Assembly (NCBI GenBank): GCA_904830895.1
Contig: LR882958.1
Coordinates: 800,001-864,000 of the forward strand
DNA: 64,000 bases
DNA from: Planktothrix rubescens CCAP 1459/22
GTDB lineage: Bacteria > Cyanobacteriota > Cyanobacteriia > Cyanobacteriales > Microcoleaceae
Direction of reading: 5' to 3'
The notes under the pieces are model-generated. The model worked only from the letters and a program-made list of their open reading frames with translations. It did not search any database and had not been told where the DNA came from. Positions 16,474 to 51,107 of the stretch are shown here, piece by piece. The position numbers and the translations under genes are program-made. Position 1 is the stretch's first letter. Every line of letters starts with the position of its first letter.

Positions 16474-16520
16474 TTGATAATTGTTATTTATTTGAACGAG
16501 TTTCCTAAATTTAGATTATA

Positions 16521-16958
16521 TCAAAAATTTATGGATTTAACTATCACTCCAATAAAACTAACTAACCCAATTACAAGCAAAGCAATTCCGATAATTTCCG
16601 CACTGTAAGAGGTTTCGTATGTATAGCGATCACTTTCAATTCGTTGAAGTAACCGACGGTGTTCTCTTAACCCTAAAGCCATTCCTACCATTCCCGTACT
16701 AAGAAAAGACAGTCCAACGATAACAGAAAATCTTACGGGGTCAATCTTAGGATGAAGGTGGGTTTGTTCAATTGTTCTAACAATAGTTGGAATCCCAAAA
16801 CCAAAACCAATCAACGAGAGAGAGGTGCGTATCCAAGCCATTAAAGTGCGATCGGCGGCGGCTCGACTGCGGTATTTAGCCATTTCGGTACGATCTGTGG
16901 CTAATTCATCATTAGAAAGATGTTTAGGAGGTTCTGAATTGACGGGTGGCTGATTCAT
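16521..16958 (-). CDS. DUF202/YidH-type membrane protein
   Basis: 145 residues with the DUF202 signature RSRAAADRTLMAWIRTSLSLIGFGFGI at the start of helix 1, and three predicted transmembrane helices (about 40-65, 78-97 and 118-140). It is predicted to lie in the inner membrane, with unknown function. It is 6 bp downstream of the bile-acid-symporter-type gene on the same strand and likely cotranscribed with it. Confidence 0.88.
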   Translation of the reverse strand: MNQPPVNSEPPKHLSNDELATDRTEMAKYRSRAAADRTLMAWIRTSLSLIGFGFGIPTIVRTIEQTHLHPKIDPVRFSVIVGLSFLSTGMVGMALGLREHRRLLQRIESDRYTYETSYSAEIIGIALLVIGLVSFIGVIVKSINF

Positions 16959-33612: not shown

Positions 33613-34239
33613 TCATACTTTGGCACAATTGTTACTGGCATTATGGGCTTTTAAATCATCTATCGTAAATAGACTCTGAAATTCTAAGCCTTCCTGCTGA
33701 TAGAGTTCCCCGCCCCCCTGTTGTCTGTCTACTAAAGCGATAATATGATGGGCCTGATATCCCGCATCCTGTAGGCGTTTGACCGCTTTCATTGCCGATT
33801 GTCCCGTAGTCACCACATCCTCAAGGACTACCACCTGGGCGTCAGGGGGTAAAGTTGGCCCCTCAATATAGGCCTGGGTTCCATGTCCTTTGGCTTCCTT
33901 GCGAACAATTAAGGCAAAAACTGGCCGATTTTGATAGGCAGAAACCACACTCACCGCCGAAACCATCGGGTCAGCACCGAGGGTTAATCCGGCCACCGCT
34001 TGGGTATCTTCGGGTAACATTGCTAATAATAAACGGCCAATAGCCAAAGCTCCATGGGGATGCAAAGTGACTTGTTTACCATTAATATAGTAGGAACTCT
34101 GTTGACCGGAAGAAAGTACAAAATCTCCTTCTTTATAGGCGAATTGACAAAATAAATCCAGTAGCCAATGGCGCAGGGTTGCTAAGTCCGTTGTGGCGAC
34201 AGACTCATTCAGAATTACCGGATGTTGATGTTGATCCAT
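33613..34239 (-). CDS. pyrE: Orotate phosphoribosyltransferase
   Basis: 208 residues. The PRPP-binding signature VVVLEDVVTTGQSAMKAVKR is at about 130-149, and the N-terminal FVLSSGQQSSYYINGKQV and the middle AGLTLGADPMVSAVS, ALIVRKEAKGHGTQ match PyrE. It converts orotate and PRPP to OMP in pyrimidine synthesis. Normal length, nothing unusual. Confidence 0.96.
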   Translation of the reverse strand: MDQHQHPVILNESVATTDLATLRHWLLDLFCQFAYKEGDFVLSSGQQSSYYINGKQVTLHPHGALAIGRLLLAMLPEDTQAVAGLTLGADPMVSAVSVVSAYQNRPVFALIVRKEAKGHGTQAYIEGPTLPPDAQVVVLEDVVTTGQSAMKAVKRLQDAGYQAHHIIALVDRQQGGGELYQQEGLEFQSLFTIDDLKAHNASNNCAKV

Positions 34240-34391: not shown

Positions 34392-37300
34392 ATGAATCGG
34401 AAACAAACGCGTCTCCTCAAATTGCAACCTTTTGCACAAATTCCGGTTCTATTCACTCCCCGGGTAGTCCTTCCATCGGTACTGTTAGTTTGCCTATTTC
34501 CCACTTCAATTGTGGCACAAACGATTATTCCGGCACAGGATGGAACCGGAACCCAAGTCATTCATCAGGGAAATCAGTTTAATATTAATGGCGGCAGTTT
34601 ATCGGGAAATGGAGCAAATTTATTCCATAGTTTTGAAAAGTTAGGACTATCTCAGGGTCAAATTATTAACTTTATTTCTAATCCTAAAATTCAGAATATA
34701 TTAGGACGAGTTACCGGGGGAGAAGCCTCTTTTGTTAATGGATTAATTCAAGTTACGGGCGGAAATTCTAACCTATTTTTAATCAACCCGGCGGGAATTG
34801 TTTTTGGAGAAAATGCCAGTTTAAATATTCCTGCCTCTTTTACCGCTACGACAGCAAGTTCGATTGGATTTGGGAATCAAAATTGGTTACAAGCTATCGG
34901 GGAAAATCAATGGCAAACCTTAGTCGGAACTCCTAGGGATTTTGTGTTTAATTCCGAAAATCCTGGGAGTTTAGTTAATTTCGGAAATCTCACGGTTTCC
35001 CCTGGAGAGAATATAACATTATTAGCAGGAACGGTTTTAAATACCGGAACAATATCCGCACCCGCCGGAAATATTACTATTGCGTCGGTGACTGGGGAAA
35101 ATTTAGTTCGACTTTCCCAGGACGGACATTTATTAAATTTAGAATTAACTTCAGATATTCCTCAAAATAATTCTACCTTTACCGCCTTATCTTTACCGGA
35201 ATTACTCACTGGAGGAAATTCAGTTAGTGCGAGTCAAGTTAAGGTTAATGAACAGGGTCAGGTTATTTTAACTGCTTCGGGAATTACAGTTCCCACCACA
35301 CCTGGAACTACGATTTTATCAGGAACTATTGATGTCAGTTCACCCAATCAAAGCGGGGGAAATCTTCAGTTAACAGGGGATAGGATTGGCTTAATTAATA
35401 GTACCTTAAACGCATCGGGATTAACCGGAGGAGGAACAATTTTAATCGGGGGAGACTATAAAGGATTAGGGGATTTTCCCCATGCCCAAAAAACCTTTAT
35501 TAGTCCAGATTCTTTTATTAATGCTAATGCTTTAGACACGGGAAATGGCGGTCGAGTTATTATTTGGTCTGAAGATTTAACTCAAGTTTATGGTAATATT
35601 CAGGTGCGGGGAGGAATCCAAAATGGCAATGGCGGATTTGTTGAAACCAGTAGTCGCGGTATTTTAGATATTAACACCGCCCCCGATATTTCAGCCCCTG
35701 TCGGGTTAGGAGGAACCTGGTTACTTGACCCAAATAATATTGATATTGTTGATGATACGAGGGGAAATACAAACCTGAATCAAAATCCTTTACCCACGGG
35801 TGAATTACTATTTAATACCAGCGATGATAATGGAAGATTAAGTGTTTTTGTATTGAAGTCGGCGCTAAGTGAAGGTAATGTTGTTGTAGAAACCGGGGAT
35901 GTGGGAACCAATTCCCAAGATGGGAATATTACCTTTCAAACTTCCTTTGATTTTGATGGAATTGGGGGGGAAAGAAGTTTAACCTTAAATGCGGCGGGGA
36001 ATATTATTCTGAATGGACAAACTATTAGGGATAGTATCCCGAATGATAGTGATAAATTAAACCTGAATTTTAATGCAGATTTTGAGAATAATAATAATGG
36101 TGCTATTTATATTAAAAACGCTACCCTCGATACAAAGGGAGGAGATTTTACCGCAACGGGTCGAGGAAATGTCCTATTCCATTCTGGAGTTTGGATTGAT
36201 AATAGTCAAATTAATACCTTGGGGGGAAACATCACCCTAGATGGCATTGCGGTTAATAACCAACCCTTTAATCATGGGATTCTATTAACGAATAGTAGCT
36301 TAAATTCTGGCAATGGAAATGTTAATTTAACTGGAACCAGTGGTCTACAAACCGAGACTAATATAGGAGTTTGGTTAGAACAATCTACTATTAATTCAGA
36401 GGCAGGAAATATTAGTATTATTGGCAATAGTCAAGGTAGTCAAAGCAGTAATATCGGGATTTTACTCAATAATAATTCTAGCGTGCAAACCCAAACAGGG
36501 AATATTACCTTAACAGGAAGTAGTGAGAATGGATTAAATGGTTTTGGTGTGAATTTGAACCAAAGTAATATTTCAACCGTTGATGGTACAATTAAAATCA
36601 CAGGAACTCCCGCCGGAATCAATAATAGCGTGGCAGTTTATATTAGTGATAGTAATATTGCTTCAACCGGAACTGGAAATATTGATTTAAACGGAAATAA
36701 TAACGCCACAGGAAATAATAATGACGGAATTTCTATATTAAATAACTCCCTAATTTCTTCCACAGGAACCGGAAATATTACCTTATCGGGGGTTAGTGGT
36801 CAGGGTAATATTAGCGAGGGAATTTTTATCGCGAATGGAAAAATACAAACCCTAAATAGTGATATTAAAATTAACGGTTTGGGACAGGGTTTAACCTCAA
36901 GTATAGGAATTTTTATTGGGGATGGAGGTGAAATTGTTTCTACTGGAATTGGGAATATTAATTTAGATGGACTTAGTAGTGCTACGGGGAATAGTAGTCA
37001 TGGAATTGCCCTATTTGGAGGTGCAAATATTACCGCGACAGCAACGGGAAATATTAATTTAGTGGGAAGTAGTAGTCAAACTCCCGATAGTCATGGGATT
37101 TTGATTTTAGATAACCCTATTATTGGGGTTATTAATGGAAATCTGAATTTAACTGGAGTGAGTTCATCTTCTTTAGGTGGACAGGGTATTTTATTGGGAA
37201 ATAGTCTAATTCAATCGTCAGGAACAGGGAGCATTAATTTAACTGGAACTGGCAATAGTACGGGGAGTGAGAGTAATGGGATTATTTTAATTAATACCGC

Positions 37301-40300
37301 AGAAATTAATAGTTTAGCGAGTGGGAATATTAATATTCAAGGTCGTAGTGCGGCAGTTGCTAATAGTCAGGCGGTGGGAATATTTGGAGAGAGTAAAATT
37401 CAAAGTAATACGGGGTCAATTTTAATCGATGGCGTGAATAATGGCGAGAATGGCGAGAATACAAATAGTGTAATTATTGGAGAAAATACCCCCATTACTA
37501 CCACAGGTTCAGGAAGTATCACCATATCAGGAAATCGAGATTTATTAATTAATTCCGTGACTAATACCGGGGGTGAAATTAATCTCCAAAGTAGTGAAGG
37601 AAATATCAATAGTAGTTTTGGAATTATTGATAGTAGTTCTATTCAGGGAAGTGGGGGAAATATTGCGATTAATGCGGCGGGTAATATTAGGGTTGCCGGA
37701 ATTAATGCCCGTGGAAACACCCAAGGAGGAAGTGTTAGTTTAACTTCTGCTAATAATATTATTACGGTAACTGATAATATTAATACTTCCGCCACCACAG
37801 GTCAGGGTAATACAATTACGGTTTCTGCTACCAATGGGGAAATTAATACCCAAGCTGGCATTTTAGATAGTAGTTCTTCTGATAATGATGGCGGCAACCA
37901 AACCCTCAACGCTTCGGGAACGATTACTTTAGGAGGAATTAATACCAGTACCGCCTCTAATTCTAGCAATAGTCAAGCAGGAACCCTGAATATTTCATCG
38001 GGAAATAATACTATTAATTTAACCGGAGATATTAATACATCTGCTACCCAAGGTCAGGGAAGTAATGTTAATTTTAATGCTAATGTTATTCTACCTAAAC
38101 CCAATATTACTATCAATACAACGGGAAATAATAGCGGGGGGAATGTTACCTTTAATGGAACAATTAACGGGGGTATTGACCCCACCCCTACCCTCCCCTT
38201 GCTAATGGGAGGACGTAATAGTTTAACCCTAGAAACTGGAACGGGAGATGCAACTTTTAGTCAAGCAATAGGGGATAGTCTGCCGCTACAAAACTTAATC
38301 ATTAATAGCGGAAATGTGGTTACTCAGTCTGCGGTAACGGTAGAGAATGGGGGAATTAATGTTAATGCAACTCAAAATATTAATTTAGGTGATACCATAA
38401 CAGCTAATAATAGTCCTATTGATGTTAGTGCTACTGGAGATATTACAACGGCGGATATTATTAGTAATGGGTCAAGAATTTCTCTCACCAGTAATACCGG
38501 AAATATTAATACCGCATCGGGTATTCTTAATAGTAGTTCAACCACCGAAAACGGAGGAGAAATCAACCTAAATGCGGCTGAAAATTTAACTATAGGCGCA
38601 GTAATTACCCGCACAGAATCTAATTTAGGAACCAGTCAAGCCGGAACCCTAACTCTCTCTGGAAATACAATTAATTTAACTAATAATATTGATACTTCTG
38701 CTACTATTGGTTCAGGGAATAATATTATCTTTAATTCTCCGGTGATTTTAGATGCAGATATCGTTACTTTAAACACATCGGGAACCGCCAGAAGTGGAAA
38801 TGTTACCTTTAATAATACCGTTGATAGTAATACTCCAGGGACTGCTAATTTAACCCTGGAAGCGGGGACGGGAACGGTTAATATTAATCAAGCAATAGGA
38901 GCAACAAATCCCTTAAATACTTTAAATCTAACCAGTGGAGATGTCAATAGTAATGGGGGAATTAATCTTGAGGGAGAAGGAATTAATATCAATAGCAGTG
39001 GTACGGTTAATTTAACCCAACCCATCACCGCCACGAATACCGCCACTATTAATATTAATGCCGAAAATAATATCACTACCGCCAACCTAACTACCCAAGG
39101 TCAAGCTATTATATTAAATAGCAATACGGGAAATATTGATAGTAGTGGCGGAATTATTAATAGCAGTTCCACTAATAGCAATGGTGGTGATATTACTATT
39201 ACAACCCCCGCTAATATTACCCTAGGGGAAATTAATACCAGTACCCAAACTAACCAAGCGGGAACTCTAACGGTTACAGGAGAAAAGATTGCGTTAACTG
39301 GAAATATTAATACCTCTGGAAATAGCGGGACAGGTAGCAATTCAACCTTTAATAACCCCGTTGAATTAAATCAACCTATTACCGTTAATACCTCTGGAAC
39401 ATCGGGAAGCGGAAATATAATTTTTAATAATACTATTAATAGTATTCCCGCCAATAATAACGGTTTAACTATACAAGCGGGAAATGGCAATATTCAATTT
39501 AATAATACGGTCAACCTGGGAGGGTTAGAAATTAATGCCCAAACCGTTAATAGTAATTCTCCTATTAACCTTGATACCGGAAATTTAAAGATTAATTCTA
39601 GTGATACTGTCACCCTTCCCCAAGATATTAATACAACCAATGGTAGTAACGTTGAAATCACCGCAACCAATAATATTATTACCGGAAATATTACTACCAA
39701 CGGTCAACCCATCACCCTGAATAGTTCCAATGGAAATATTACGACAAACCCCGGTATTCTGAATACCAGTTCCCCGAATAATGGGGGAAATATTACTATT
39801 ATTACCCCCCAAACCCTGAATTTAGGTGGGGTTAATACCAGTACCTCCAACGGTCAAGCGGGAAATGTTACTTTAAACACTGGAAATAATCCAATTATTT
39901 TAAATGGTGATATTAATACCTCTAGCAATAATGGGGTCGGAAGTCAACAACAATATAATAGTCCCCTACAACTCGCATCCCCTAATATTACCCTAACTTC
40001 ATCGGGAACTAATAATAGTGGTGATATTATTTTCAATAATTCTATCAATGGAAATAGTAACTTAACCCTGAATGCGGGTAGCGGTAATATTACTTTTTCT
40101 ACTGTGGGTGATAGTAACCCCCTGTCTAGTTTGCAAGTTAATACCACCGGACTCACGACCCTAAAAGGCAATTTAACTACAAATAATAATATTGATTTTA
40201 GTAATGCTTCTGGGGGAACTCAACTCGAAAATCCTATTATTATTAATACCACCGGAAATAATGGTAATATTCTATTTAATAATAGTCCGATAACAGGTTC

Positions 40301-43300
40301 CCAAACCCTAACACTCAACGCCGGAAATGGAACAATTTCCCTGAATACCGTTGGTAATAATAATAACCCCATAAACGGATTAATTTTTCAACAAGCGAGC
40401 GCCCTTAACCTGTTTGGAGATATCTACACCAGCGCCGGACTTAACTTTTCCTCCGTAAATACCGTTAATGTTTCTGGAAATTCAGTTACATTAGACACCA
40501 GTATTGGAAATGGAGCAATTGACTTTATTGGTTCAACCCTTGCTGGACAAGGAAATAGTAACTTAACCCTGAATGCGGGTAGCGGTAATATTACTTTTTC
40601 TACTGTGGGTGATAGTAACCCCCTGTCTAGTTTGCAAGTTAATACCACCGGACTCACGACCCTAAAAGGCAATTTAACTACAAATAATAATATTGATTTT
40701 AGTAATGCTTCTGGGGGAACTCAACTCGAAAATCCTATTATTATTAATACCACCGGAAATAATGGTAATATCCTATTTAATAATAGTCCGATAACAGGTT
40801 CCCAAACCCTAACACTCAACGCCGGAAATGGAACAATTTCCCTGAATACCGTTGGTAATAATAATAACCCCATAAACGGATTAATTTTCCAACAAGCGAG
40901 CGCCCTTAACCTGTTTGGAGATATCTACACCAGCGCCGGACTTAACTTTTCCTCCGTAAATACCGTTAATGTTTCTGGAAATTCAGTTACATTAGACACC
41001 AGTATTGGAAACGGAGTAATTGACTTTATTGGTTCAACCCTTGCCGGACAAGGAAAGTTAACCCTTAATGCGGGGAATAATGATGTAAATTTAGATACCT
41101 TTACCACCGAATCTTCCCTGAACGGTTTAGGGATTACCGCCGGAACCGTCCAAGCTAACGCCCCCATCACCCTAGGGTCAGGGGGACTGAATATTAATGC
41201 CAGTAATATTGTTAACCTTAATGCTAATATTGTCAGTAATGGTACGGTTGCAGTCACCGCCAATAATGATATTACCACCCGTGATATTACCGCATCCCCT
41301 GGTATTACCCTCAATAGCCGTAACGGGAATATTACGGTTAACTCCCTGAATAGTTCATCCCCTAATGCTAACGGTGGGGGTATTTCCCTAAGTACCCCCC
41401 AGGGAAATATTACTACTAACACCCTGAATAGCTCATCCCCAGGTAATGCGGGCGGAAATATCTCCCTAGAAGCGAATACCGGAAATGTTACAACCGGAAA
41501 TATACTGACATCCGGTTCGACAGGCGGTAATGTTACGGTTAAAGCCCAAACCAGCATTACCACCGGACAAATTGATACCCAAGGTCAAACCCAGGGCGGT
41601 AACGTCTTCCTCGACCCGATTAATGATGTTCAGGTCGAATTTATTAACGCTGAATCCCCCAATGGTCTCGGGGGTAACGTTTTTGCCGAATCAACTCAAG
41701 GCTACTTCCGTGCTACCAACTCCTTCCCCACCCAATTTTCCCCCACGGGAACCGCCAGTATCTCCACCGCAGGACGTCTGGGCGGGGGTTCGATTACGAT
41801 TCGTCAGGCTGGAGGGCCACTGAATCCCCCTGTTGCTCCCTTTGAAATCGGAGGTAACTTAGCAATGAATGGAACAGCCTCCGTCATTACTACAGGAGAC
41901 TTTAATATTCTGCCACTCCAAAGTTTTGAAGGTTCATTCACATCAGGAAATATTGTTATTTCCACCGATGACGCGCCTAATATTCCCCCCAATGTAAATC
42001 AACCCTTAATTGATACCGAAGTTATCCTACAAGAAGATGTATTAATTCGTCCTGACCAAGAACAAAAAATAGAAGAAACTTCTCCTGAAATTATTATTAA
42101 TGATAACAATACTACAGGAGACTTTAATATTCTGCCACCCCAAAGTCCTGAAGGTTCATTCACATCAGGAAATATTGTTATTTCCACCGATGACGCGCCT
42201 AATATTCCCCCCAAGAAAATTTTATCAACGGTAGATATTGCTTTTGGTTTTGATAACTTAGATTCGACATTTTTAGCATTAGAACAGTCAAGAAATCAAG
42301 AATTTAAACAACATTTAGGAGTCCAAGGAACCCAATTAAATCGTTCAGAAGTTCAACAATTGTTAAAAGAATTAGAGATAAAAACTAAACAGGCTTATGC
42401 GATTGTTTATATTGTTTCCAGGGAAGAGCAACTAGAAATCATTGTGGTTCCTTCCTTCGGTGAACCCATAAGACATAGCGTTCCTGAAGCCACTAAAGAA
42501 AAATTATTCCCCGTTGTTCGACAATTACAAAGTGAAATTACCAACCCCCGAAAACGGGATACAGTCAGTTATCAAGCTCCGGCGGAACAACTTTATCAAT
42601 GGATGATTCAACCGATAGAAGATGATTTGAAAAGATTAGGAATTTCGACAATTCTATTCTCCCTGGATGCAGGTTTACGGAGTTTACCGATGGCAGTTTT
42701 ATGGGATGGTCAACAATTCTTAACCGAAAAATATGGGATTAGTTTAATTCCGAGTACCAGCTTAATTGACTTTCGATATCAACCCATTGGTCAAGCGCAA
42801 GTCCTAGCCATGGGAGCCAGTCAATTTCAACAACAAAATCCACTTCCGGCGGTTCCAATTGAACTCCAAAATATTACTGAAATTTGGCCTGGGGAAAAAT
42901 TCTTAAACGAACGATTTACCCTGGAAAATCTGAAATCCCAACGGCGTATATCTGATTTTCAAGTGATTCATTTAGCCACCCACGCTGATTTTAAAACCGG
43001 ATCTCCGAGTAATTCTTTTATTCAATTATGGAATGAAAAATTACCCTTAACAGAACTTCCTAATTTGGGTTGGGATAATCCCATAGTGGAATTATTAACT
43101 TTAAGTGCTTGTCGAACAGCATTAGGAGATCGACGGTCAGAATTAGGATTTGCTGGGTTAGCGGTGCAGGCTGGAGTTAAATCAGCTTTAGCGAGTTTAT
43201 GGTATGTTAGTGATCAAGGAACCTTGGGATTAATGAGTGAATTTTATGAATCTTTAAAGCAAGATCCGATTAAAGCGATCGCTTTACAAGAGGCACAAAT

Positions 43301-43457
43301 TGACATGATTCAAGGAAAAACTCGGATCGAAAATGATCAATTGATAACCACCTTTGGCGCTATTCCTCTCCCTGAGAATCTGACAGAATCTAATATTACC
43401 AGCCTATCCCATCCCTATTACTGGTCAGGATTTACAATGATTGGAAGCCCTTGGTAA
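34392..43457 (+). CDS. Giant two-partner-secretion (FHA-type) protein with C-terminal CHAT protease domain
   Basis: 3021 residues. After a signal peptide (about 1-42, cleaved after SIVAQ), a TPS/haemagglutination domain covers about 43-420 (NLFHSFEKL, NLFLINPAGIVFGENA). A long Asn/Thr/Gly-rich parallel beta-helix of repeats follows (NITxNxxxGNI type) to about residue 2500, with a recent 501-bp tandem duplication (residues ~1887-2220) and a smaller repeat near 2505-2605. The last ~410 residues form a CHAT domain: IHLATHADF with His2864 and LLTLSACRTALGD with Cys2907, the caspase-like catalytic pair, then GFAGLAVQAGVKSALASLW. The substrate-recognition target is unknown. No TpsB transporter gene is adjacent. 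A secreted or surface-anchored protease is inferred. Confidence 0.93.
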   Translation: MNRKQTRLLKLQPFAQIPVLFTPRVVLPSVLLVCLFPTSIVAQTIIPAQDGTGTQVIHQGNQFNINGGSLSGNGANLFHSFEKLGLSQGQIINFISNPKIQNILGRVTGGEASFVNGLIQVTGGNSNLFLINPAGIVFGENASLNIPASFTATTASSIGFGNQNWLQAIGENQWQTLVGTPRDFVFNSENPGSLVNFGNLTVSPGENITLLAGTVLNTGTISAPAGNITIASVTGENLVRLSQDGHLLNLELTSDIPQNNSTFTALSLPELLTGGNSVSASQVKVNEQGQVILTASGITVPTTPGTTILSGTIDVSSPNQSGGNLQLTGDRIGLINSTLNASGLTGGGTILIGGDYKGLGDFPHAQKTFISPDSFINANALDTGNGGRVIIWSEDLTQVYGNIQVRGGIQNGNGGFVETSSRGILDINTAPDISAPVGLGGTWLLDPNNIDIVDDTRGNTNLNQNPLPTGELLFNTSDDNGRLSVFVLKSALSEGNVVVETGDVGTNSQDGNITFQTSFDFDGIGGERSLTLNAAGNIILNGQTIRDSIPNDSDKLNLNFNADFENNNNGAIYIKNATLDTKGGDFTATGRGNVLFHSGVWIDNSQINTLGGNITLDGIAVNNQPFNHGILLTNSSLNSGNGNVNLTGTSGLQTETNIGVWLEQSTINSEAGNISIIGNSQGSQSSNIGILLNNNSSVQTQTGNITLTGSSENGLNGFGVNLNQSNISTVDGTIKITGTPAGINNSVAVYISDSNIASTGTGNIDLNGNNNATGNNNDGISILNNSLISSTGTGNITLSGVSGQGNISEGIFIANGKIQTLNSDIKINGLGQGLTSSIGIFIGDGGEIVSTGIGNINLDGLSSATGNSSHGIALFGGANITATATGNINLVGSSSQTPDSHGILILDNPIIGVINGNLNLTGVSSSSLGGQGILLGNSLIQSSGTGSINLTGTGNSTGSESNGIILINTAEINSLASGNINIQGRSAAVANSQAVGIFGESKIQSNTGSILIDGVNNGENGENTNSVIIGENTPITTTGSGSITISGNRDLLINSVTNTGGEINLQSSEGNINSSFGIIDSSSIQGSGGNIAINAAGNIRVAGINARGNTQGGSVSLTSANNIITVTDNINTSATTGQGNTITVSATNGEINTQAGILDSSSSDNDGGNQTLNASGTITLGGINTSTASNSSNSQAGTLNISSGNNTINLTGDINTSATQGQGSNVNFNANVILPKPNITINTTGNNSGGNVTFNGTINGGIDPTPTLPLLMGGRNSLTLETGTGDATFSQAIGDSLPLQNLIINSGNVVTQSAVTVENGGINVNATQNINLGDTITANNSPIDVSATGDITTADIISNGSRISLTSNTGNINTASGILNSSSTTENGGEINLNAAENLTIGAVITRTESNLGTSQAGTLTLSGNTINLTNNIDTSATIGSGNNIIFNSPVILDADIVTLNTSGTARSGNVTFNNTVDSNTPGTANLTLEAGTGTVNINQAIGATNPLNTLNLTSGDVNSNGGINLEGEGININSSGTVNLTQPITATNTATININAENNITTANLTTQGQAIILNSNTGNIDSSGGIINSSSTNSNGGDITITTPANITLGEINTSTQTNQAGTLTVTGEKIALTGNINTSGNSGTGSNSTFNNPVELNQPITVNTSGTSGSGNIIFNNTINSIPANNNGLTIQAGNGNIQFNNTVNLGGLEINAQTVNSNSPINLDTGNLKINSSDTVTLPQDINTTNGSNVEITATNNIITGNITTNGQPITLNSSNGNITTNPGILNTSSPNNGGNITIITPQTLNLGGVNTSTSNGQAGNVTLNTGNNPIILNGDINTSSNNGVGSQQQYNSPLQLASPNITLTSSGTNNSGDIIFNNSINGNSNLTLNAGSGNITFSTVGDSNPLSSLQVNTTGLTTLKGNLTTNNNIDFSNASGGTQLENPIIINTTGNNGNILFNNSPITGSQTLTLNAGNGTISLNTVGNNNNPINGLIFQQASALNLFGDIYTSAGLNFSSVNTVNVSGNSVTLDTSIGNGAIDFIGSTLAGQGNSNLTLNAGSGNITFSTVGDSNPLSSLQVNTTGLTTLKGNLTTNNNIDFSNASGGTQLENPIIINTTGNNGNILFNNSPITGSQTLTLNAGNGTISLNTVGNNNNPINGLIFQQASALNLFGDIYTSAGLNFSSVNTVNVSGNSVTLDTSIGNGVIDFIGSTLAGQGKLTLNAGNNDVNLDTFTTESSLNGLGITAGTVQANAPITLGSGGLNINASNIVNLNANIVSNGTVAVTANNDITTRDITASPGITLNSRNGNITVNSLNSSSPNANGGGISLSTPQGNITTNTLNSSSPGNAGGNISLEANTGNVTTGNILTSGSTGGNVTVKAQTSITTGQIDTQGQTQGGNVFLDPINDVQVEFINAESPNGLGGNVFAESTQGYFRATNSFPTQFSPTGTASISTAGRLGGGSITIRQAGGPLNPPVAPFEIGGNLAMNGTASVITTGDFNILPLQSFEGSFTSGNIVISTDDAPNIPPNVNQPLIDTEVILQEDVLIRPDQEQKIEETSPEIIINDNNTTGDFNILPPQSPEGSFTSGNIVISTDDAPNIPPKKILSTVDIAFGFDNLDSTFLALEQSRNQEFKQHLGVQGTQLNRSEVQQLLKELEIKTKQAYAIVYIVSREEQLEIIVVPSFGEPIRHSVPEATKEKLFPVVRQLQSEITNPRKRDTVSYQAPAEQLYQWMIQPIEDDLKRLGISTILFSLDAGLRSLPMAVLWDGQQFLTEKYGISLIPSTSLIDFRYQPIGQAQVLAMGASQFQQQNPLPAVPIELQNITEIWPGEKFLNERFTLENLKSQRRISDFQVIHLATHADFKTGSPSNSFIQLWNEKLPLTELPNLGWDNPIVELLTLSACRTALGDRRSELGFAGLAVQAGVKSALASLWYVSDQGTLGLMSEFYESLKQDPIKAIALQEAQIDMIQGKTRIENDQLITTFGAIPLPENLTESNITSLSHPYYWSGFTMIGSPW
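40050..41051 (+). repeat. 501-bp tandem duplication inside the FHA-CHAT gene
   Basis: The block beginning GGAAATAGTAACTTAACCCT is repeated with a 501-bp period (40050-40550 and 40551-about 41051). The copies differ at only a few bases and keep the reading frame (167 codons). The near identity points to recent unequal exchange or slippage in the stalk, a way to vary its length. Confidence 0.93.
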
Positions 43458-43619
43458 ACTTAGGGAGCGGTTTTTTAAAAATAACCTTTAAGGTTGCAAT
43501 TGCTAAAATTTCTACCTTGTTGTATAGTCAATTTATTTTTTCAAAAGATGTTTTAAACTATGATCTAGTAGATTTTTTTCAACGAAATTCTTTGTTGATC
43601 CGAAAGGACAGTTATCTAT

Positions 43620-43686
43620 TATAGCAACCGCCAAGGCAGTTAGGATACCAGACGGTGAAGTATTTTCTCCCCTGTTCCCTGCTATA
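43620..43686 (+). repeat. Dispersed TATAGCA-ended element, copy D (short form)
   Basis: A 67-bp version from TATAGCAACCGCCAAGGCAG to CCCTGTTCCCTGCTATA. It keeps both termini and the CCAGACGGTGAAGTATTTTC core but lacks the central insert of copies C and E, so it is the minimal form of the family. Confidence 0.8.
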
Positions 43687-43693
43687 CCTAGCA

Positions 43694-43756
43694 ACCTAAA
43701 AAGCAAAGCCTCCATCACTTATTCCCCAAGTCAGGGAAATAGGGAAAGGAGGCTTT
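43694..43756 (-). terminator. Putative terminator of the STAND gene
   Basis: On the minus strand, just after the stop at 43763, the stem AAAGCCTCC (43748-43756) pairs with GGAGGCTTT (43705-43713), followed by GCTTTTTAGG. The 34-base loop is long for a classical intrinsic terminator, so this is moderate evidence. Confidence 0.5.
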
Positions 43757-43762
43757 AAGCGA

Positions 43763-45685
43763 TTATTTCAGTAAGCGTTGGCGAGCAGTCATCCGCCAAG
43801 CCAGCAATTCAGGTAAACGCCAGGTAACACCATTAGATTTTTGATCTAATTCGTCCTGTTCTAAGGCCGTTTTCCAAAACGCTAAGGCTTGTTTATGACG
43901 GTTTTGGGCTTCTAAAACCTGAGCTAAAAGATAGTAAGCCACCACATTAGATTCTTTTAATTCTAAGGATTGACGTAACTCAACTTCAGCCTGTTTTGGA
44001 TTATTTTCTAGGAAATAAGCCCAGCCTAAATTCTTATATAAGGCGGCTCGGATTCCTTTATCCTTAACTTGTACCAAGGTTTTTTCTAATTTATCAATAG
44101 CTTCCTCGGTTTTGCCATCTAAAATTTCCAATCGTGCTAAATTATTCACCGCCGCCTGTGCTGCGCGGTTATTATCCACATCGACTAGAATTTGATAATG
44201 TTTTCTGGCTTCTTCAAACTGATCGAGCTTTTCATAGGTCGAACCTAAATTATAATGACCTGCACTTAAAGCCGAATGATAGCGAATTGCTTGCAATAAA
44301 TTGATTTTAGCCGATTGAAACTCCCCTTCTAAGTAGTGTTTATAACCCAGTTCATTAAAGGATTTACCCATTAACTGATACCAGACGGCTTTTCTGAAGT
44401 TACTATTAACCGTGTAAGCCATAGGAGCGCTAAAATTAGTTGTTTCTAACAGCGATCGCTCAACTAAAAATTCTAAGGAAGTCTGGACTTCGGCTTCAGT
44501 TTCCGAGAGAATTAAATCCGTTGCTAACTCACTCAAGGTTGCCGCTTTTTGATTTACTGCCAACCAACAGACTAAACGAATTTCTAGGTCGGACAATTCC
44601 TGTTCTGCTCGCAGGGATTGACGTACCAATTCTTCAATAACCAAGGTATTTTGCTTGATTAATTTCGTCAGATTTCTAATTGTAAAATCAGGAATCTTAG
44701 CCGCCCATAATTTTAAAATTAAGGGGTTGCCACCACATAAATGAATCAATTCTGATAGGAATTTTTCATCTAAATAGAGGGATTCTTGACCGGATAAAAC
44801 CATTTGTTGAGAGTCTTGTTCCGATAACCCAGTTAACTGTACTGAGGTTTTAGACGCGAACTGTTGCCACGAAAGCGGAAATTCCCAACCGATTAATAAA
44901 ACACTGCTACGATGGGAAGACTCACTAATCTGTTGAAATAAAGATTCATAACTTTTGAAAGCCGCATCTTTACTCCCGAGTTGTGAGATATATTCTATCT
45001 CATCAATTACTAACAAATACCGAGAATCCGATAAGGTTTTCAACAATTGGGCGATTTGTTCCGAATCATCCCAACCTAAAGGGGCTTGAGATTGTTCAGG
45101 AAAAGTTGAGGCGATAAACTCACTCGGAGAAGGTTTATCTCGGAGTGAGCGCCAAATCACTTTGTCAAAGTCCGGGGCAATTTCCTGAACTAATTTAACC
45201 GCCAAAGCCGTTTTCCCAATACCGCCCATGCCCTCCAACATCATCAGGTGAGCACGTTCGGTGACTAATCCTTGTTTTAAGGTAGCCATAGCTTCCAAAC
45301 GGCCATAAAAGGCTGCCAATTTGGGTGCATTCCCCCAATCGATTTGAACATTACTACTGAAACCTTGGGGGTCAAGGCTACTCATCGACCGCTTTTTGCG
45401 ACCGGATTGACCATTGATTTGGCCCCCTTGATTAGTACCATCGGTTTGATATTCTGACAGTAACTTTTGCTGCAATTTTGCTAATTTTCCCGGCCCTGCA
45501 CCGCTAATATTTAGTTTCCTATAAACCTCACCCAAGCGTTTCTGCAAGGCATCCTTGCGAACCCCTAATTGCTTAGAAATCGCAGTCATCGGTTCTCCTT
45601 GGATTGCCCGCGCCATCACTTCGAGTTCATTGTCGGAAATTCCAACTCTCGTAGCTACAGTCTTTAAAAATTCTCTCGGTACCAT
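43763..45685 (-). CDS. STAND-type regulator: HTH, NB-ARC ATPase, TPR
   Basis: 640 residues. Residues ~15-62 form a LuxR-like helix-turn-helix (DNELEVMARAIQGEPMTAIS, then RLGEVYRKLNI). A linker leads to an NB-ARC ATPase with FYGRLEAMATLKQ, Walker A GMGGIGKT (152-159), Walker B YLLVIDEIEYI and sensor GGNPLILKLWA. The C-terminal ~190 residues are TPR repeats (HYNLGSTYEKLDQFEEARKHY, YKNLGWAYFLENNPKQAEVEL). Such proteins are signalling hubs of the apoptosis-like/inflammasome-type class. It converges with the FHA-CHAT gene; together they could be a sensor and an effector, but this is inference. The final part of the gene ends in MTARQRLLK. Confidence 0.93.
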   Translation of the reverse strand: MVPREFLKTVATRVGISDNELEVMARAIQGEPMTAISKQLGVRKDALQKRLGEVYRKLNISGAGPGKLAKLQQKLLSEYQTDGTNQGGQINGQSGRKKRSMSSLDPQGFSSNVQIDWGNAPKLAAFYGRLEAMATLKQGLVTERAHLMMLEGMGGIGKTALAVKLVQEIAPDFDKVIWRSLRDKPSPSEFIASTFPEQSQAPLGWDDSEQIAQLLKTLSDSRYLLVIDEIEYISQLGSKDAAFKSYESLFQQISESSHRSSVLLIGWEFPLSWQQFASKTSVQLTGLSEQDSQQMVLSGQESLYLDEKFLSELIHLCGGNPLILKLWAAKIPDFTIRNLTKLIKQNTLVIEELVRQSLRAEQELSDLEIRLVCWLAVNQKAATLSELATDLILSETEAEVQTSLEFLVERSLLETTNFSAPMAYTVNSNFRKAVWYQLMGKSFNELGYKHYLEGEFQSAKINLLQAIRYHSALSAGHYNLGSTYEKLDQFEEARKHYQILVDVDNNRAAQAAVNNLARLEILDGKTEEAIDKLEKTLVQVKDKGIRAALYKNLGWAYFLENNPKQAEVELRQSLELKESNVVAYYLLAQVLEAQNRHKQALAFWKTALEQDELDQKSNGVTWRLPELLAWRMTARQRLLK

Positions 45686-46751: not shown

Positions 46752-49700
46752 TTAAAACACTTGGGACTCAAAGGCTCCGATATCAATAATGTTATTGATG
46801 ATCCGGTTAAAGCCTGCCCCCCGTTGATCAAATTGTCCAGGGTCAGTATAGGGGGCAATAAAGCTATTACTTCCCTTGTTAATAGCAAGACTGGTACTAG
46901 CTAGAGCCAAGGTTGGTGTAGTGCCGCCGTTATTTTGTAAGGGACTGAGTAAGGGATCGATTGGGGCGATCGTACTGCCGACAATATCATTTTTAACCCC
47001 ATCTACTAAACCCTCTCCCCCAGTTCCGTTTCCAATTAGGTTATTGCCGCCACTCTTGAAGGCAAATTCAATGGAGGCTCCCACGTCCGGGTCAAGGGGG
47101 GAGGTATTACTGGCAATAATTGTGTTTTTCAGGTTGGCTACCCCCCCAATATTCCTTACCCCGCCACTGTTTCCGCTCGCATTATTGAAGGCAATTGTGC
47201 TATTAGTAATCGTCAAGTCCGCAACGGAGTTAAATATTCCTCCGCCGATGTTGCCTTGATTGTTAGCAATCGTACTATTAATAATTTGGACTTGACCATC
47301 AATCACAATAATTCCACCACCGTTACTGCCTTTATTATTGCTGATGGTGCTGTTTTGAATGATAAGTTGGCCAGAGTTGGCGATCGCCCCCCCATTATTC
47401 GCCTGGTTTGCATCTAGCCAACTATCGATCACCTTCACGTTACTGGTAGAAGACGTAATATTAATCGCCCCGCCCCGACTTCCTGTGGTGGTACTACTGG
47501 TATTGGGTATAGTTCCGGCGGGGAAACCATTGGTCAGTTTCAAGTCCTCAAAAGTCACATTCCCACCATTAACAGTGAAAACATTGTAGTCCCCCCCCGT
47601 ATCTCGACGAATAGTCAGCTTATCGGCTCCTGGCCCATCAAAAATTACATCGCTACCGATACCGGGTAAAGCCCCTGCCAGATTAATCACCCCAGAAGCG
47701 GCTTTGTCAACAAAGGTAATCGTATCTTCTCCGGGTAGAATTCCAGCATTGAGAATCGCCTGACGTAATGAACCTTCTAGGGTGGCATAGTCTTCGGGGG
47801 CTTGACTCTTAGTATCCCCTAGTTGAGTCACGGCGGTATCATTGGCCAGAATCGTCACCTGTGCCGTATTTTCTTTGGGATTAATCTTATAGTTCCCGTC
47901 CGCTAAGACTAGGGTTAAAGATTCATCAGCTTCGGCTTGGACATCATTAATGGGAGTCAAGATGATATCCATACTGGCTTGATTGTTGGGAAGGGTAACA
48001 GTAGCGGTGGAGTTACCTGTGACCGCTACGGTTTGACCCGTTGAGGTGCTCAGGGTATAGTCCGCCGGGCTAATTTTATCGGGTTCTAGGGTGAGGTTGA
48101 TGGTTAAATCCCCAAAGGTATCCGGGGCGCGACTAATCCGATAAATACCGTTTTTGGGCTGTTCATTGGGGACTTTTGTGGTGACAGGTTCCGTGGCTAT
48201 TGCTTCTACCGTGGTTAAACTGAGGGTGGCTTTGTCGTCATCTTTGATGGTAACGGTACTGGTAGGGATATTATTTCCATCTTGTCCGTTTTTGTTAAAA
48301 TTGGCAAAGGAGAGTCCAAAGCTGCGGTCAGGTTGCACCAGGGTGTTCCCGATAATACCAAGGGGGACAATTTGTTTGTCTTGGTTAATAGCAAATTGAA
48401 TTCTTTGTGGCCCTGGTGTAAAGTCCGTATTAGCGATCGCGGTATCACTGGTAAATACCACATCCACACTAGAGGTTTGAGTAATATCTCCTGAGCGAAG
48501 CACCTGAACTTCATTAAACAGGTTCGTGATGTCTCCTTCATCTAAGCTGTAGTTATTCTGGGTAAAGTTATAGGTTGGTGGGGAATCATCATCTTCAATG
48601 ATTAGAGCCGCCTGCGGGACTGTGGTTCCAGATTGTCCATCGTTATCGAAGCCAGAAAAGGACAGAACTACAGTTTCGGTAGATTCGGATATTTGATCCC
48701 CTTTAATCGTAACTGGTATCGTTTTGCTAATTTCTCCCGGTGCAAATTGCACAGGGATGGTACTCGGAGTAAAATCCTCTCCCGGGGTCGCTCCATTTTG
48801 GGCAGCCGGGTTTAAGTCCACCGTCACCGAGGAGTTAATATCAACCTTTCCTGAGCGAATAATAGTAATTTCACTGTAGGTAATATCATTATTCCCTTCC
48901 CGAATCCGATAAGTATTAGTGGTGAAGTCGTAGGTCGGAACATTATCATCATCAATCACCAGTAACTCTGAGGTGGGATGGATATTTCCCACTAAAGCCC
49001 CTAGGGGGGGATTGAGGGAGAGATTCAGGGTTCGGTTTTGATTGGGTGTGAGGTTGCCCAGAATAGTGATCGGGACGGTTTGGGTGATTTGTCCCGGGGT
49101 GAAGTTCACGGTGATTGGCCCGGGAACAAAATCTACATTGGGGATAGCATTGACCCCAGTGACATTGACTGAGACGGAGGAGTTGACATTAATATCCCCA
49201 GAACGATCAATTTCTACCAGTTGGGTAATATTAGTTGAGTTACCTTCAAGGGTTTTGAATAGGGGTTCTTTGAAATCATAAGTAGTGGGGCCATCGTCGT
49301 CATTAATAATTAAGTTGGTTGTAGGATAAAGGGTTCCAGCCTGTCCGATGGGTAGAAAACCGTCCGGTGCAAAAGAGAGGATAATTATTTCTGAAGGTTC
49401 AATAACATCATCACCAATGATCGGGATTTGGAAGGTATTCTCGGTCTGACCGGGGGCAAATTGGAGGACGATTTCCGTGGGTTCAACATCAACTCCAGGT
49501 GTTCCGCCATTCTGTCCGGCGGGGGTGAGGAGAATCTTGACACTTGATTGCTGACTGGTATCAAAAGTACGATTAACCGTAATAGTAGCTTGCCCAGGAT
49601 TGCCAGGATCACCCTCAAAGATGGAAAATTTAGATTGACTAAAGTTATAAACCGGGGGTTTGGGCGGGAGATCTTCGCTCTGGATACTGGCTACGGCGGT

Positions 49701-51107
49701 GGATTGTTGAGGATTAGCGGTGTATAAAAAGCCGGATTCTCTTAAGGTGATATCGATAGTTAGGGGGTCTTCTTCAAATTTATCGTTGTTGATCGGGGCG
49801 AGTTTGAGGGTGGCGATGGTACTATTTGCTGGGAAGGAAACGCTACCCCCTGTATTCGTAAAGGTTTCGTTATCAATAACGGTATAGTTTTCCCCTAGTT
49901 TTGCTGTTCCTCCAACGGTGAAGTTAACGTTAATGGGTAGGTCGAGGGAACCTCCCGCCCGTGTAAAGGTATAAACAAAGTTTTCTTGGCTATTTTCCAG
50001 AATAGTAGAGGGAGCAACCGACAGACTAATCGCGGAGGGAAAGGGCCCGATGGGAAAAACGATCGGCGGTTTTGAATCTACGGGCGGGACAGTTCCCTGT
50101 GAACTACTATCATTGTCTTGTAGGGTAATAACAATTGCCTGAGATTCTCCTAGGGTAGCTCCTCCCGTGGGATTGGCTAGGGTTAATTTAAAGATTTCAT
50201 TCGGTTCGGCTTCCCGATCATCAATAACGGTGAGGGGAATAGGAACAATTTTGAAAGTTTCGTAAGGTTTGAAAATGACTTCTATGGGTTCTACGCTAAC
50301 GTCACTAGCCGTGGCGGTATCGAGTTGTAGTTCCAGTTTGGCACTTACCGTATTAAAGGGAGAACCTGCTCGTTGAACGTTGACAAATAGGGCTGGTGTT
50401 TCGCCTTCTTTGACTACCAAGGAATTATTATTGGTAAACTCAATAACGGGTGTAAGGCTTTCGATTGATTGGGTAAAGTTGGCTTGATTATTAAGGGTTG
50501 TAGCTTGAGTTTCCTGAATAATAATTAGTTTTTGATTGCTGATCTTATCTTCAGTTACGGTATCATTTCCCACTTGAACAAACCGCAAATCAGCAAATTT
50601 TAATTCCTTAGTTAATCCAATTAAATCGACTCCAACTCTAAAATCAGTAATACTATCAACTTCAGTATCTATCAGTTCTCGACCAATTACAAATACATCG
50701 GAACCTCCGCCTCCGGTGAGTTCATTTTTCCCGCTTCCGCTATAAAGTAGGTCGTTTCCTCTATCTCCAAATAGTTGATCATTTCCACTACTATCAAATA
50801 GGGTATCGTTACCCTGTCCACCATAAAGGAGGTCGTCACCGTCACCGCCATTGAGTTGATCATCCCCATTATTGCCATAGGCAATATCATTCCCTGCTTC
50901 TCCTTCGAGGGTATCATTTCCCAGATCCCCAAACATCAGATCATTCCCATTACCCCCAGACAGTAAATCCTGATCCTGACCTCCATTTAGAGTATCGTTT
51001 TCGCCTAATCCATTCAGGGTATCGTTTCCAGCAAATCCTAAGATTTCATCGGGTTCGGGTGTCCCAGCTAGGAAATCATCGCTCGCGGTGCCAATAAGTT
51101 GTGCCAT
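46752..51107 (-). CDS. Large RTX / Calx-beta / beta-helix surface or secreted protein
   Basis: 1451 residues, no signal peptide, acidic. Residues ~20-150 are calcium-binding RTX nonapeptides (GGxGxDxLx; for example GGNGNDLMFGDLGNDTLEG), followed by SITDFRVGVDLIGL, a domain common after RTX arrays. Residues ~230-1090 hold about seven Calx-beta-type repeats (each with V.R.G....SV and DD or NDD at the end). Residues ~1100-1451 form a right-handed beta-helix with SLRQAI near its start and DIGAFESQVF at the end, as in choice-of-anchor proteins. RTX proteins are usually exported by type I systems, whose signal is C-terminal; here the RTX block is N-terminal, which is unusual. No exporter gene is nearby. 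An adhesin or matrix role is inferred. Confidence 0.9.
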   Translation of the reverse strand: MAQLIGTASDDFLAGTPEPDEILGFAGNDTLNGLGENDTLNGGQDQDLLSGGNGNDLMFGDLGNDTLEGEAGNDIAYGNNGDDQLNGGDGDDLLYGGQGNDTLFDSSGNDQLFGDRGNDLLYSGSGKNELTGGGGSDVFVIGRELIDTEVDSITDFRVGVDLIGLTKELKFADLRFVQVGNDTVTEDKISNQKLIIIQETQATTLNNQANFTQSIESLTPVIEFTNNNSLVVKEGETPALFVNVQRAGSPFNTVSAKLELQLDTATASDVSVEPIEVIFKPYETFKIVPIPLTVIDDREAEPNEIFKLTLANPTGGATLGESQAIVITLQDNDSSSQGTVPPVDSKPPIVFPIGPFPSAISLSVAPSTILENSQENFVYTFTRAGGSLDLPINVNFTVGGTAKLGENYTVIDNETFTNTGGSVSFPANSTIATLKLAPINNDKFEEDPLTIDITLRESGFLYTANPQQSTAVASIQSEDLPPKPPVYNFSQSKFSIFEGDPGNPGQATITVNRTFDTSQQSSVKILLTPAGQNGGTPGVDVEPTEIVLQFAPGQTENTFQIPIIGDDVIEPSEIIILSFAPDGFLPIGQAGTLYPTTNLIINDDDGPTTYDFKEPLFKTLEGNSTNITQLVEIDRSGDINVNSSVSVNVTGVNAIPNVDFVPGPITVNFTPGQITQTVPITILGNLTPNQNRTLNLSLNPPLGALVGNIHPTSELLVIDDDNVPTYDFTTNTYRIREGNNDITYSEITIIRSGKVDINSSVTVDLNPAAQNGATPGEDFTPSTIPVQFAPGEISKTIPVTIKGDQISESTETVVLSFSGFDNDGQSGTTVPQAALIIEDDDSPPTYNFTQNNYSLDEGDITNLFNEVQVLRSGDITQTSSVDVVFTSDTAIANTDFTPGPQRIQFAINQDKQIVPLGIIGNTLVQPDRSFGLSFANFNKNGQDGNNIPTSTVTIKDDDKATLSLTTVEAIATEPVTTKVPNEQPKNGIYRISRAPDTFGDLTINLTLEPDKISPADYTLSTSTGQTVAVTGNSTATVTLPNNQASMDIILTPINDVQAEADESLTLVLADGNYKINPKENTAQVTILANDTAVTQLGDTKSQAPEDYATLEGSLRQAILNAGILPGEDTITFVDKAASGVINLAGALPGIGSDVIFDGPGADKLTIRRDTGGDYNVFTVNGGNVTFEDLKLTNGFPAGTIPNTSSTTTGSRGGAINITSSTSNVKVIDSWLDANQANNGGAIANSGQLIIQNSTISNNKGSNGGGIIVIDGQVQIINSTIANNQGNIGGGIFNSVADLTITNSTIAFNNASGNSGGVRNIGGVANLKNTIIASNTSPLDPDVGASIEFAFKSGGNNLIGNGTGGEGLVDGVKNDIVGSTIAPIDPLLSPLQNNGGTTPTLALASTSLAINKGSNSFIAPYTDPGQFDQRGAGFNRIINNIIDIGAFESQVF

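Follow-up and report, generated by a model that had tools for sequence, protein, structure and literature searches.

Where would a CHAT protease act when it forms the last domain of a giant secreted protein, and is the STAND gene lying beside it a partner? CHAT proteases are known mainly from intracellular systems. The window (the whole 64,000-nucleotide stretch of Planktothrix rubescens DNA that was analysed) carries a gene (34392..43457, + strand) for a protein of 3021 residues in which Pfam recognises both a TPS and a CHAT domain; orthologues of this gene, here called TPS-CHAT, are found in eight other genomes of the genus. The initial annotation described its product as an FHA-type secreted protein with an intact CHAT domain at its C-terminus and placed it, together with the adjacent STAND gene, in a cell-contact, self-recognition or programmed-death module. 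The description of the exoprotein was borne out by its domains, by fold models and by its recurrence in cyanobacteria; the proposed module was refuted by the lack of conserved co-occurrence.

The reading frame, all of it on the + strand, opens with a putative export signal region (residues 1-43, boundary estimated; 34392..34520) consisting of a hydrophobic segment with VAQ at its end. A TPS secretion domain carrying the NPxG motif follows (residues 50-247; 34539..35132), and then a repeat-rich stalk (approximately residues 248-2500; 35133..41891), which is probably a beta-helix, judging from a model of residues 22-451 and elsewhere from the character of the sequence. A linker, recognised as fast-evolving by its identity to the genus orthologues (approximately residues 2501-2610; 41892..42221), leads to a complete predicted CHAT fold (residues 2607-3021; 42210..43454). 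Structure models match TPS exoproteins in the N-terminal part, where the domain match also indicates a TPS domain having the beta-helix fold of TpsA, and CHAT/separase in the C-terminal domain, which is likewise matched by the CHAT profile. The predicted catalytic residues are His2864 (codon 42981..42983), in the His column of the CHAT alignment, and Cys2907 (codon 43110..43112), the sole cysteine of the protein past residue 45. Their spacing of 43 equals that of the Csx29 dyad, given as H615/C658 in the part of the source consulted (PMC10028731). A search of PDB sequences with the CHAT profile returned no match to E 0.1, so that kinship to TPR-CHAT and separase is a matter of fold.

When sought in cyanobacterial genomes, this combination of TPS exoprotein and CHAT domain proved recurrent and is not due to chance. 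Both catalytic residues singled out by the initial annotation are conserved, the histidine in 99/99 aligned CHAT ORFs and the cysteine in all 98 that have that alignment column; the exception, outside the aligned set, is one damaged paralogue (L232, in genome G060 of the same species) in which an internal stretch of CHAT, histidine included, is missing. Full-length TPS-CHAT ORFs (89, counting that of the window) contain 0.47 non-catalytic cysteines per 1000 residues, compared to 11.28 in control ORFs, and all 89 keep the catalytic one; 57 of them have no other cysteine, 27 an even number and 5 an odd number. A simple window score assigns a hydrophobic N-terminus to 82/89 of these proteins and to 89/234 control ORFs. 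The rows of relatives are themselves related, so these counts are not independent. Three loci (L132, L133, L135) duplicate others (L055, L056, L057) and were omitted from the dyad alignment and from the cysteine and N-terminus counts; one comparison of relatives used them in place of L055-L057. Among 17 ORFs classed as TPS-only, some (e.g. L131, L081, L087, L091, L114) are immediately followed by a CHAT ORF and could be pieces of a broken gene. That CHAT serves as a structural or binding domain with no working protease is very improbable, given that the histidine and cysteine persist across the aligned set in proteins that have hardly any other cysteine.

We consider it likely, with a probability of roughly 0.7, that the gene encodes a TpsA-type exoprotein whose C-terminal domain, a cysteine protease of the separase/TPR-CHAT type, is exported on a stalk and works outside the cytoplasm. 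The export-type N-terminus, the TPS domain, the CHAT fold, the conserved dyad and the depletion of cysteine support this reading at the level of sequence and structure models. The protein would use Sec to cross the inner membrane, its TPS domain would engage a TpsB pore whose gene lies at another locus of the genome, and the beta-helix would be threaded out to form a surface stalk. The C-terminal CHAT domain, the last to come, would act at the cell surface or in the periplasm, where it might cut a substrate of the envelope or surface in a regulated manner. The premise of the initial annotation that CHAT proteases usually act inside the cell is a poor guide here, since several other CHAT genes of the window genome (L034-L038, L043) start, by eye, with export-type hydrophobic stretches. 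If true, a stalk-borne CHAT family would mean that a large bacterial group carries out separase-like proteolysis beyond the cytoplasm.

The STAND gene (NB-ARC and TPR; 43763..45685, - strand) is the convergent neighbour of TPS-CHAT. The proposal that the two form one recognition or programmed-death module draws on their adjacency in the window genome and in G060, on a paralogue in the window genome (L030:9632-14947) that likewise has a NACHT gene behind it, and on a same-strand CHAT-STAND pair elsewhere in that genome (L049). A STAND orthologue (85-100% identity) is present in all ten genus genomes, but it adjoins TPS-CHAT in only two of the nine that hold both, and those two, the window genome and G060, are one species. 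The genes are 11 kb apart in one genus genome and on different contigs in six, with other genes beside TPS-CHAT. Similarly, none of the flanks retrieved for the 8 other paralogue loci, the same species included, contains the NACHT gene. Among relatives elsewhere, no STAND gene was found within three ORFs of 76 TPS-CHATs, compared to 22/262 control genes, in a comparison where many regions were shortened by contig ends (three ORFs on both sides for only 24/56 and 13/20 TPS-CHATs) and where the controls came from 20 regions, their 22 STAND neighbours representing five ORFs. Another tally gave 78 TPS-CHATs, the two additional ones lying in L151 and L168. A Pfam scan of immediate neighbours also gave no support for a STAND partnership. 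Moreover, an exported CHAT and a STAND protein with no visible export signal would occupy different compartments. The partnership was rejected because orthologue position in the genus, neighbour profiles and the Pfam scan all speak against it. By these genomic comparisons the pair is refuted as a conserved unit and the adjacent STAND gene is judged to play no part; a joint module is extremely improbable.

Within the genus, TPS-CHAT is present in nine of ten genomes. A pyrE-like phosphoribosyltransferase gene is its conserved upstream neighbour (33613..34239, - strand, in the window), found at that position in 8/8 other genus genomes with TPS-CHAT (G067 read from copy L057), and the gene downstream varies. 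A CDI-like polymorphic toxin, with the CHAT tip delivered to neighbouring cells and an immunity gene downstream, might be suspected from the TpsA architecture with its C-terminal enzymatic domain and from tandem arrays of two or more TPS-CHATs at several loci (e.g. L060, L062, L071, L078). However, across seven genus orthologues the CHAT domain (82-91% identical, without gaps) is conserved nearly like the TPS domain (90-95%) and far above the linker (51-70%), and therefore does not look like the exchangeable, highly variable tip of a CDI system. Together with the changing downstream gene, this conservation makes a polymorphic toxin unlikely. It is conceivable, though doubtful, that CHAT is a self-processing domain that matures or frees the exoprotein by cutting the stalk or linker to which it is attached. 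Self-processing caspase-clan proteases occur in other giant secreted proteins, and the CHAT domain sits at the C-terminus behind a fast-evolving linker that is rich in proline, threonine or glycine in several relatives (e.g. L065, L069, L111, L122), but the same module also exists as a protein of 436-525 residues with no stalk to process. TPS-CHAT genes may be dispensable, since in G060 the orthologue is broken into two ORFs and the paralogue lacks the histidine part of CHAT.

The short stalkless form was represented by 20 complete ORFs, spread over 19 of the 20 regions retrieved for it; one of the regions chosen, L151, holds a contig-end fragment. The simple window score found a hydrophobic N-terminus in 21 of 25 short CHAT proteins, a set also used for the tree and including L103, probably a broken TPS-CHAT. 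On a midpoint-rooted tree, short CHATs and TPS-CHATs form one clade (98/97); the next group consists of TPR-CHATs, most of them taken from DUF928 regions, which is a sampling bias. TPS-CHAT might share one extracytoplasmic role with the short exported CHATs. Relatives of the CHAT domain also occur on 122 plasmid records, all below 60% identity, the best being a 450-codon gene in a stretch for which no TPS gene is annotated.

TpsB, and less often exported DUF928 proteins and CHASE2 receptors, are neighbours that recur in part of the TPS-CHAT family. In regions from diverse families, TpsB adjoins TPS-CHAT in 6/20, compared to 0/262 control genes; it is not adjacent in the other 14, and it was not found within three ORFs of any of the 56 TPS-CHATs in L055-L130. 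DUF928 lies within three ORFs in 3/20 diverse regions and 1/56 others, and the same counts apply to CHASE2. The DUF928 regions were hand-picked with TPS coordinates already in view, in most cases one from each family, and L227, at least, was chosen in the knowledge that a TPS match lay next to it. A second method, a Pfam tally of 124/126 complete immediate neighbours of 80 TPS-CHATs in regions partly shared with the profile count, was led by POTRA_2, POTRA and Omp85 (7 each), with ShlB at 6 and DUF928 at 3. The flanking sequence retrieved for the genus orthologues showed no TpsB gene, and the three POTRA_2 matches of the window genome are not adjacent to TPS-CHAT. In some other lineages the TPS-CHAT pathway might include exported DUF928 proteins and CHASE2 receptors. 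More speculatively, and with low confidence, we propose outside-in signalling in cyanobacteria, in which separase-fold proteases, TPS-stalked or short and exported, would work beyond the cytoplasm and pass signals to CHASE2 receptors with cyclic-nucleotide, c-di-GMP or kinase outputs; TPS-CHAT would then combine, in one protein, TpsA and CHAT from a TpsB-TpsA-CHAT-DUF928-CHASE2 gene set. The recurring set offers a concrete, testable pathway, also for DUF928, a domain of unknown function.

Among known systems, TPS exoproteins (the TpsA proteins HMW1, EtpA, FHA and HxuA) share with TPS-CHAT the NPxG-bearing TPS domain, the fold and a long repeat stalk, and in some lineages TpsB lies beside the gene as in TpsA systems. 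Unlike them, TPS-CHAT ends in a caspase-fold protease, and TpsB is not adjacent in the window genome. Separase is eukaryotic and intracellular, and gingipains, of another family, use another secretion route; neither gave a sequence-profile match (to E 0.1 for separase). Csx29, the TPR-CHAT of type III-E CRISPR (Craspase), contains TPRs and associates with a CRISPR effector, whereas TPS-CHAT has no TPR by Pfam and an export-type N-terminus; here too there was no profile match to E 0.1. A Trichodesmium metacaspase-CHASE2 protein links a caspase-fold domain to a CHASE2 receptor, with the protease described, in the part of the source consulted, as predicted cytoplasmic and fused (PMC3501461). Three CHAT-CHASE2 fusions, with partial CHAT matches, were likewise seen here, but TPS-CHAT itself seems to be exported, and its closest tie to CHASE2 is that of a neighbouring gene, in other lineages. 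A literature search, with subscription papers and preprints outside its scope, found no paper joining CHAT to CHASE2 and, among the matches listed, none on a cyanobacterial CHAT-FHA/TPS fusion; a single paper mentions DUF928, and DdvA, known from PDB entry titles, was not named among the matches listed.

Anti-phage defence was rejected after a PADLOC search, which matched the CHAT region to BovA (E 0.00098), the STAND protein to PDC-S27 (E 2e-06), two TPR-CHATs to generic TPR models (one also weakly to C3a156) and the CHASE2-cyclase to Pycsar cyclase models (best E 2.2e-24), with no match for the NACHT protein or DUF928. Finally, a 300-nt sequence occurs in the stalk in two identical copies at a distance of 501 bp (40050-40349 and 40551-40850, together 40050..40850, + strand). 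The segment that holds them (residues 1431-2500) aligns with 167-171 gap positions in 7/7 genus orthologues, consistent with a duplication found only in the window gene.

The open reading frame at 34392-43457 of the window (forward strand) is real and encodes a 3021-aa protein, with a TPS domain at residues 50-247 and a CHAT profile match at residues 2728-3019. The initial annotation had proposed a giant protein joining these two domains, and this was confirmed; alignment also placed the catalytic residues at His2864 and Cys2907, as claimed. The protein is a TpsA with a predicted separase-type protease as its C-terminal domain (hereafter TPS-CHAT). Among genus orthologues, the linker (51-70% identity) and stalk (76-89%) are the most divergent parts, while the TPS (90-95%) and CHAT (82-91%) domains are the least. 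Within the stalk, two identical 300-nt copies lie 501 bp apart (window 40050-40850); this seems to be a 167-codon duplication missing from 7 genus orthologues.

The convergent gene at 43763-45685 had been described as an HTH-NB-ARC-TPR regulator and a possible partner of TPS-CHAT. Its 640-aa product does carry NB-ARC and TPR matches, but the HTH match fell under the cut-off. Across ten genus genomes, the orthologue of this STAND gene was present in all ten and TPS-CHAT in nine, the genome without it being 73% complete. The two genes adjoin only in the window genome and in a second genome of the same species (G060); the distance between them is 11 kb in G067, and in G061, G062, G063, G065, G066 and G068 they lie on separate contigs, with another gene flanking TPS-CHAT. 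A pyrE-like gene is adjacent upstream in 8/8 other genus genomes, whereas the downstream gene changes. The same pattern was observed for the paralogue, the second TPS-CHAT of the window genome (L030:9632-14947): its coaE-like neighbour was kept in all eight other genomes looked at, while its NACHT neighbour was found in none of their fetched flanks, including that of the same species (two of these regions reach only ~3-4 kb downstream, enough to reveal a NACHT gene if it were placed as in the window genome).

Beyond the genus, a STAND gene was detected within three ORFs of 0/20 TPS-CHATs from diverse families (p = 0.38) and of 0/56 from a contig scan (p = 0.019), compared with 22/262 control genes, using a profile built from four seeds that may miss members. 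STAND genes are therefore not enriched near TPS-CHATs, and we claim no depletion. They occur farther away in a few loci (e.g. L062). Neither NB-ARC nor NACHT was among the 25 commonest Pfam families (the least having 3 members) in 124 of the 126 immediate neighbours of 80 TPS-CHATs. Neither kept in the genus nor enriched near relatives, the STAND pairing was rejected. Elsewhere in the window genome, a small CHAT gene (L049:4281-7234) directly adjoins a same-strand STAND gene, a more classical CHAT-STAND pair. The 1451-aa product of the next gene beyond the window's STAND gene (46752-51107) contains RTX repeats, Calx-beta domains and a choice-of-anchor Q domain.

TPS-CHAT itself is real, recurrent and biologically odd. 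Genome contigs were scanned with the CHAT regions of both TPS-CHATs of the window genome and of a short exported CHAT (A1), giving at least 580 pattern matches, at least 542 of them confirmed. The best 80 of these correspond to 76 loci holding 56 ORFs with both TPS and CHAT, some in tandem, so the architecture recurs in cyanobacteria; the closest named loci among the matches listed belong to Planktothrix sp. PCC 11201 and two Oscillatoriales MAGs. Full-length TPS+CHAT ORFs across all loci at that stage numbered 91 (887-3386 aa, same-contig copies included). One 1822-aa TPS-CHAT ORF (L175:7709-13177) has a first part that looks unlike TPS, with no NPxG in its first 400 residues, and is perhaps fused or over-extended at its start. 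Within the order, a TPS protein is present in 55/60 genomes and A1 has matches at E 0.001 in 59/60, a figure that also counts other CHATs; with up to nine candidates scored per genome, a match at E 1e-110 was found in at least 44/194 genomes of the phylum. The window genome has 26 CHAT matches, some being pieces of one gene, and three TPS proteins, of which two are TPS-CHATs. A CHAT match in G060 (C2:104490-105533) nearly coincides in position with one in the P. agardhii NIES-204 record AP017992.1 (104439-105533).

Conservation of the catalytic residues, likewise expected by the initial annotation, was borne out in an alignment of 99 distinct ORFs: the histidine is kept in 99/99 and the cysteine in 98/98, the remaining ORF being cut by a contig end. 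The exception, outside the aligned set, is the G060 paralogue (L232:9550-14454), a single 1634-aa ORF that the CHAT query matches at residues 19-133 and 269-416 only, the internal part bearing the histidine being missing. Both TPS-CHAT genes of G060 look damaged, the orthologue being split into two ORFs (L131:8632-14901 and 15138-16727).

All 89 full-length TPS-CHATs examined for cysteine content retain the catalytic cysteine. Other cysteines number only 77 in 164,946 residues after residue 60 (0.47 per 1000, versus 11.28 in control ORFs); 57 proteins have none, 27 an even number and 5 an odd number. TPS proteins without CHAT are also cysteine-poor (1.14 per 1000, n = 17, some being gene fragments). 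The depletion is thus a property of the secreted scaffold, and the retained cysteine is the special feature. Such a pattern would be expected of an extracytoplasmic protein in which a single functional cysteine is under selection.

The same CHAT module occurs in many families as a short protein with an export-type N-terminus (L038:4134-5633 and loci L152-L170), lacking a stalk and measuring 436-525 aa in 20 complete ORFs. A second cysteine at the position of Ser2757 is found in 19/20 short CHATs and 0/36 TPS-CHATs (alignment A2), and could possibly act as a redox switch.

A proposed mechanism draws on observed domain order, modelled folds, dyad conservation, cysteine depletion and neighbour statistics. 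TPS-CHAT would be exported via Sec and TpsB, its stalk displayed at the surface, and CHAT, periplasmic or surface-exposed, would cleave an envelope or surface substrate. CHAT might instead purely process its own stalk or linker, but the existence of the module as a stalkless protein leads us to prefer cleavage in trans. The boldest step is a putative coupling to CHASE2, suggested by gene order in other lineages.

TpsB adjoins 6/20 diverse TPS-CHATs but 0/262 control genes (Fisher p = 5.9e-8), and DUF928 and CHASE2 each lie within three ORFs of 3/20 (p = 3.1e-4 each). Near the 56 contig-scan TPS-CHATs, TpsB was found at none and DUF928/CHASE2 at one; other TPS genes adjoin 12 and other CHAT genes 13. 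The 20 short CHATs showed no comparable enrichment (DUF928 0, CHASE2 0, TpsB 1). Around 19 DUF928 ORFs from 17 hand-picked regions outside the window genome, CHASE2 adjoins 11, and CHAT, TPS and TpsB lie within three ORFs of 8, 6 and 4, respectively; in L220 all five genes stand side by side. Each of the window genome's four DUF928 genes has a CHAT or TpsB gene next to it or with one small ORF between. Given this gene set, TPS-CHAT can be read as a fusion of two members of it.

A tree built from 90 CHAT regions (midpoint-rooted for drawing only, bootstrap not settled) places TPS-CHATs and the short forms in a single clade (98/97), within which 23 short forms cluster (91/99). The next group comprises eight TPR-CHATs (100/100) and joins this clade at 94/90. 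Of the eight, six were sampled from DUF928 regions, so their DUF928 company is no independent evidence; the exceptions, L043 (window genome) and L161, lie beside DUF928/CHASE2 and TpsB. The TPS label needs four changes on the tree, two of them forced, so either fusion or loss was a repeated event or the tree lacks resolution.

The gene set CHASE2-DUF928-CHAT, sometimes with TpsB and TPS, recurs in L214-L230, L035, L037 and L043, with varying CHASE2 outputs: in ten CHASE2 proteins the accompanying domains are cyclase, GGDEF, GGDEF-EAL, protein-kinase, histidine-kinase or CHAT, and one more has a cyclase. CHAT-CHASE2 fusions, with partial CHAT matches, occur in L215, L220 and L228, regions that also hold separate CHAT genes.
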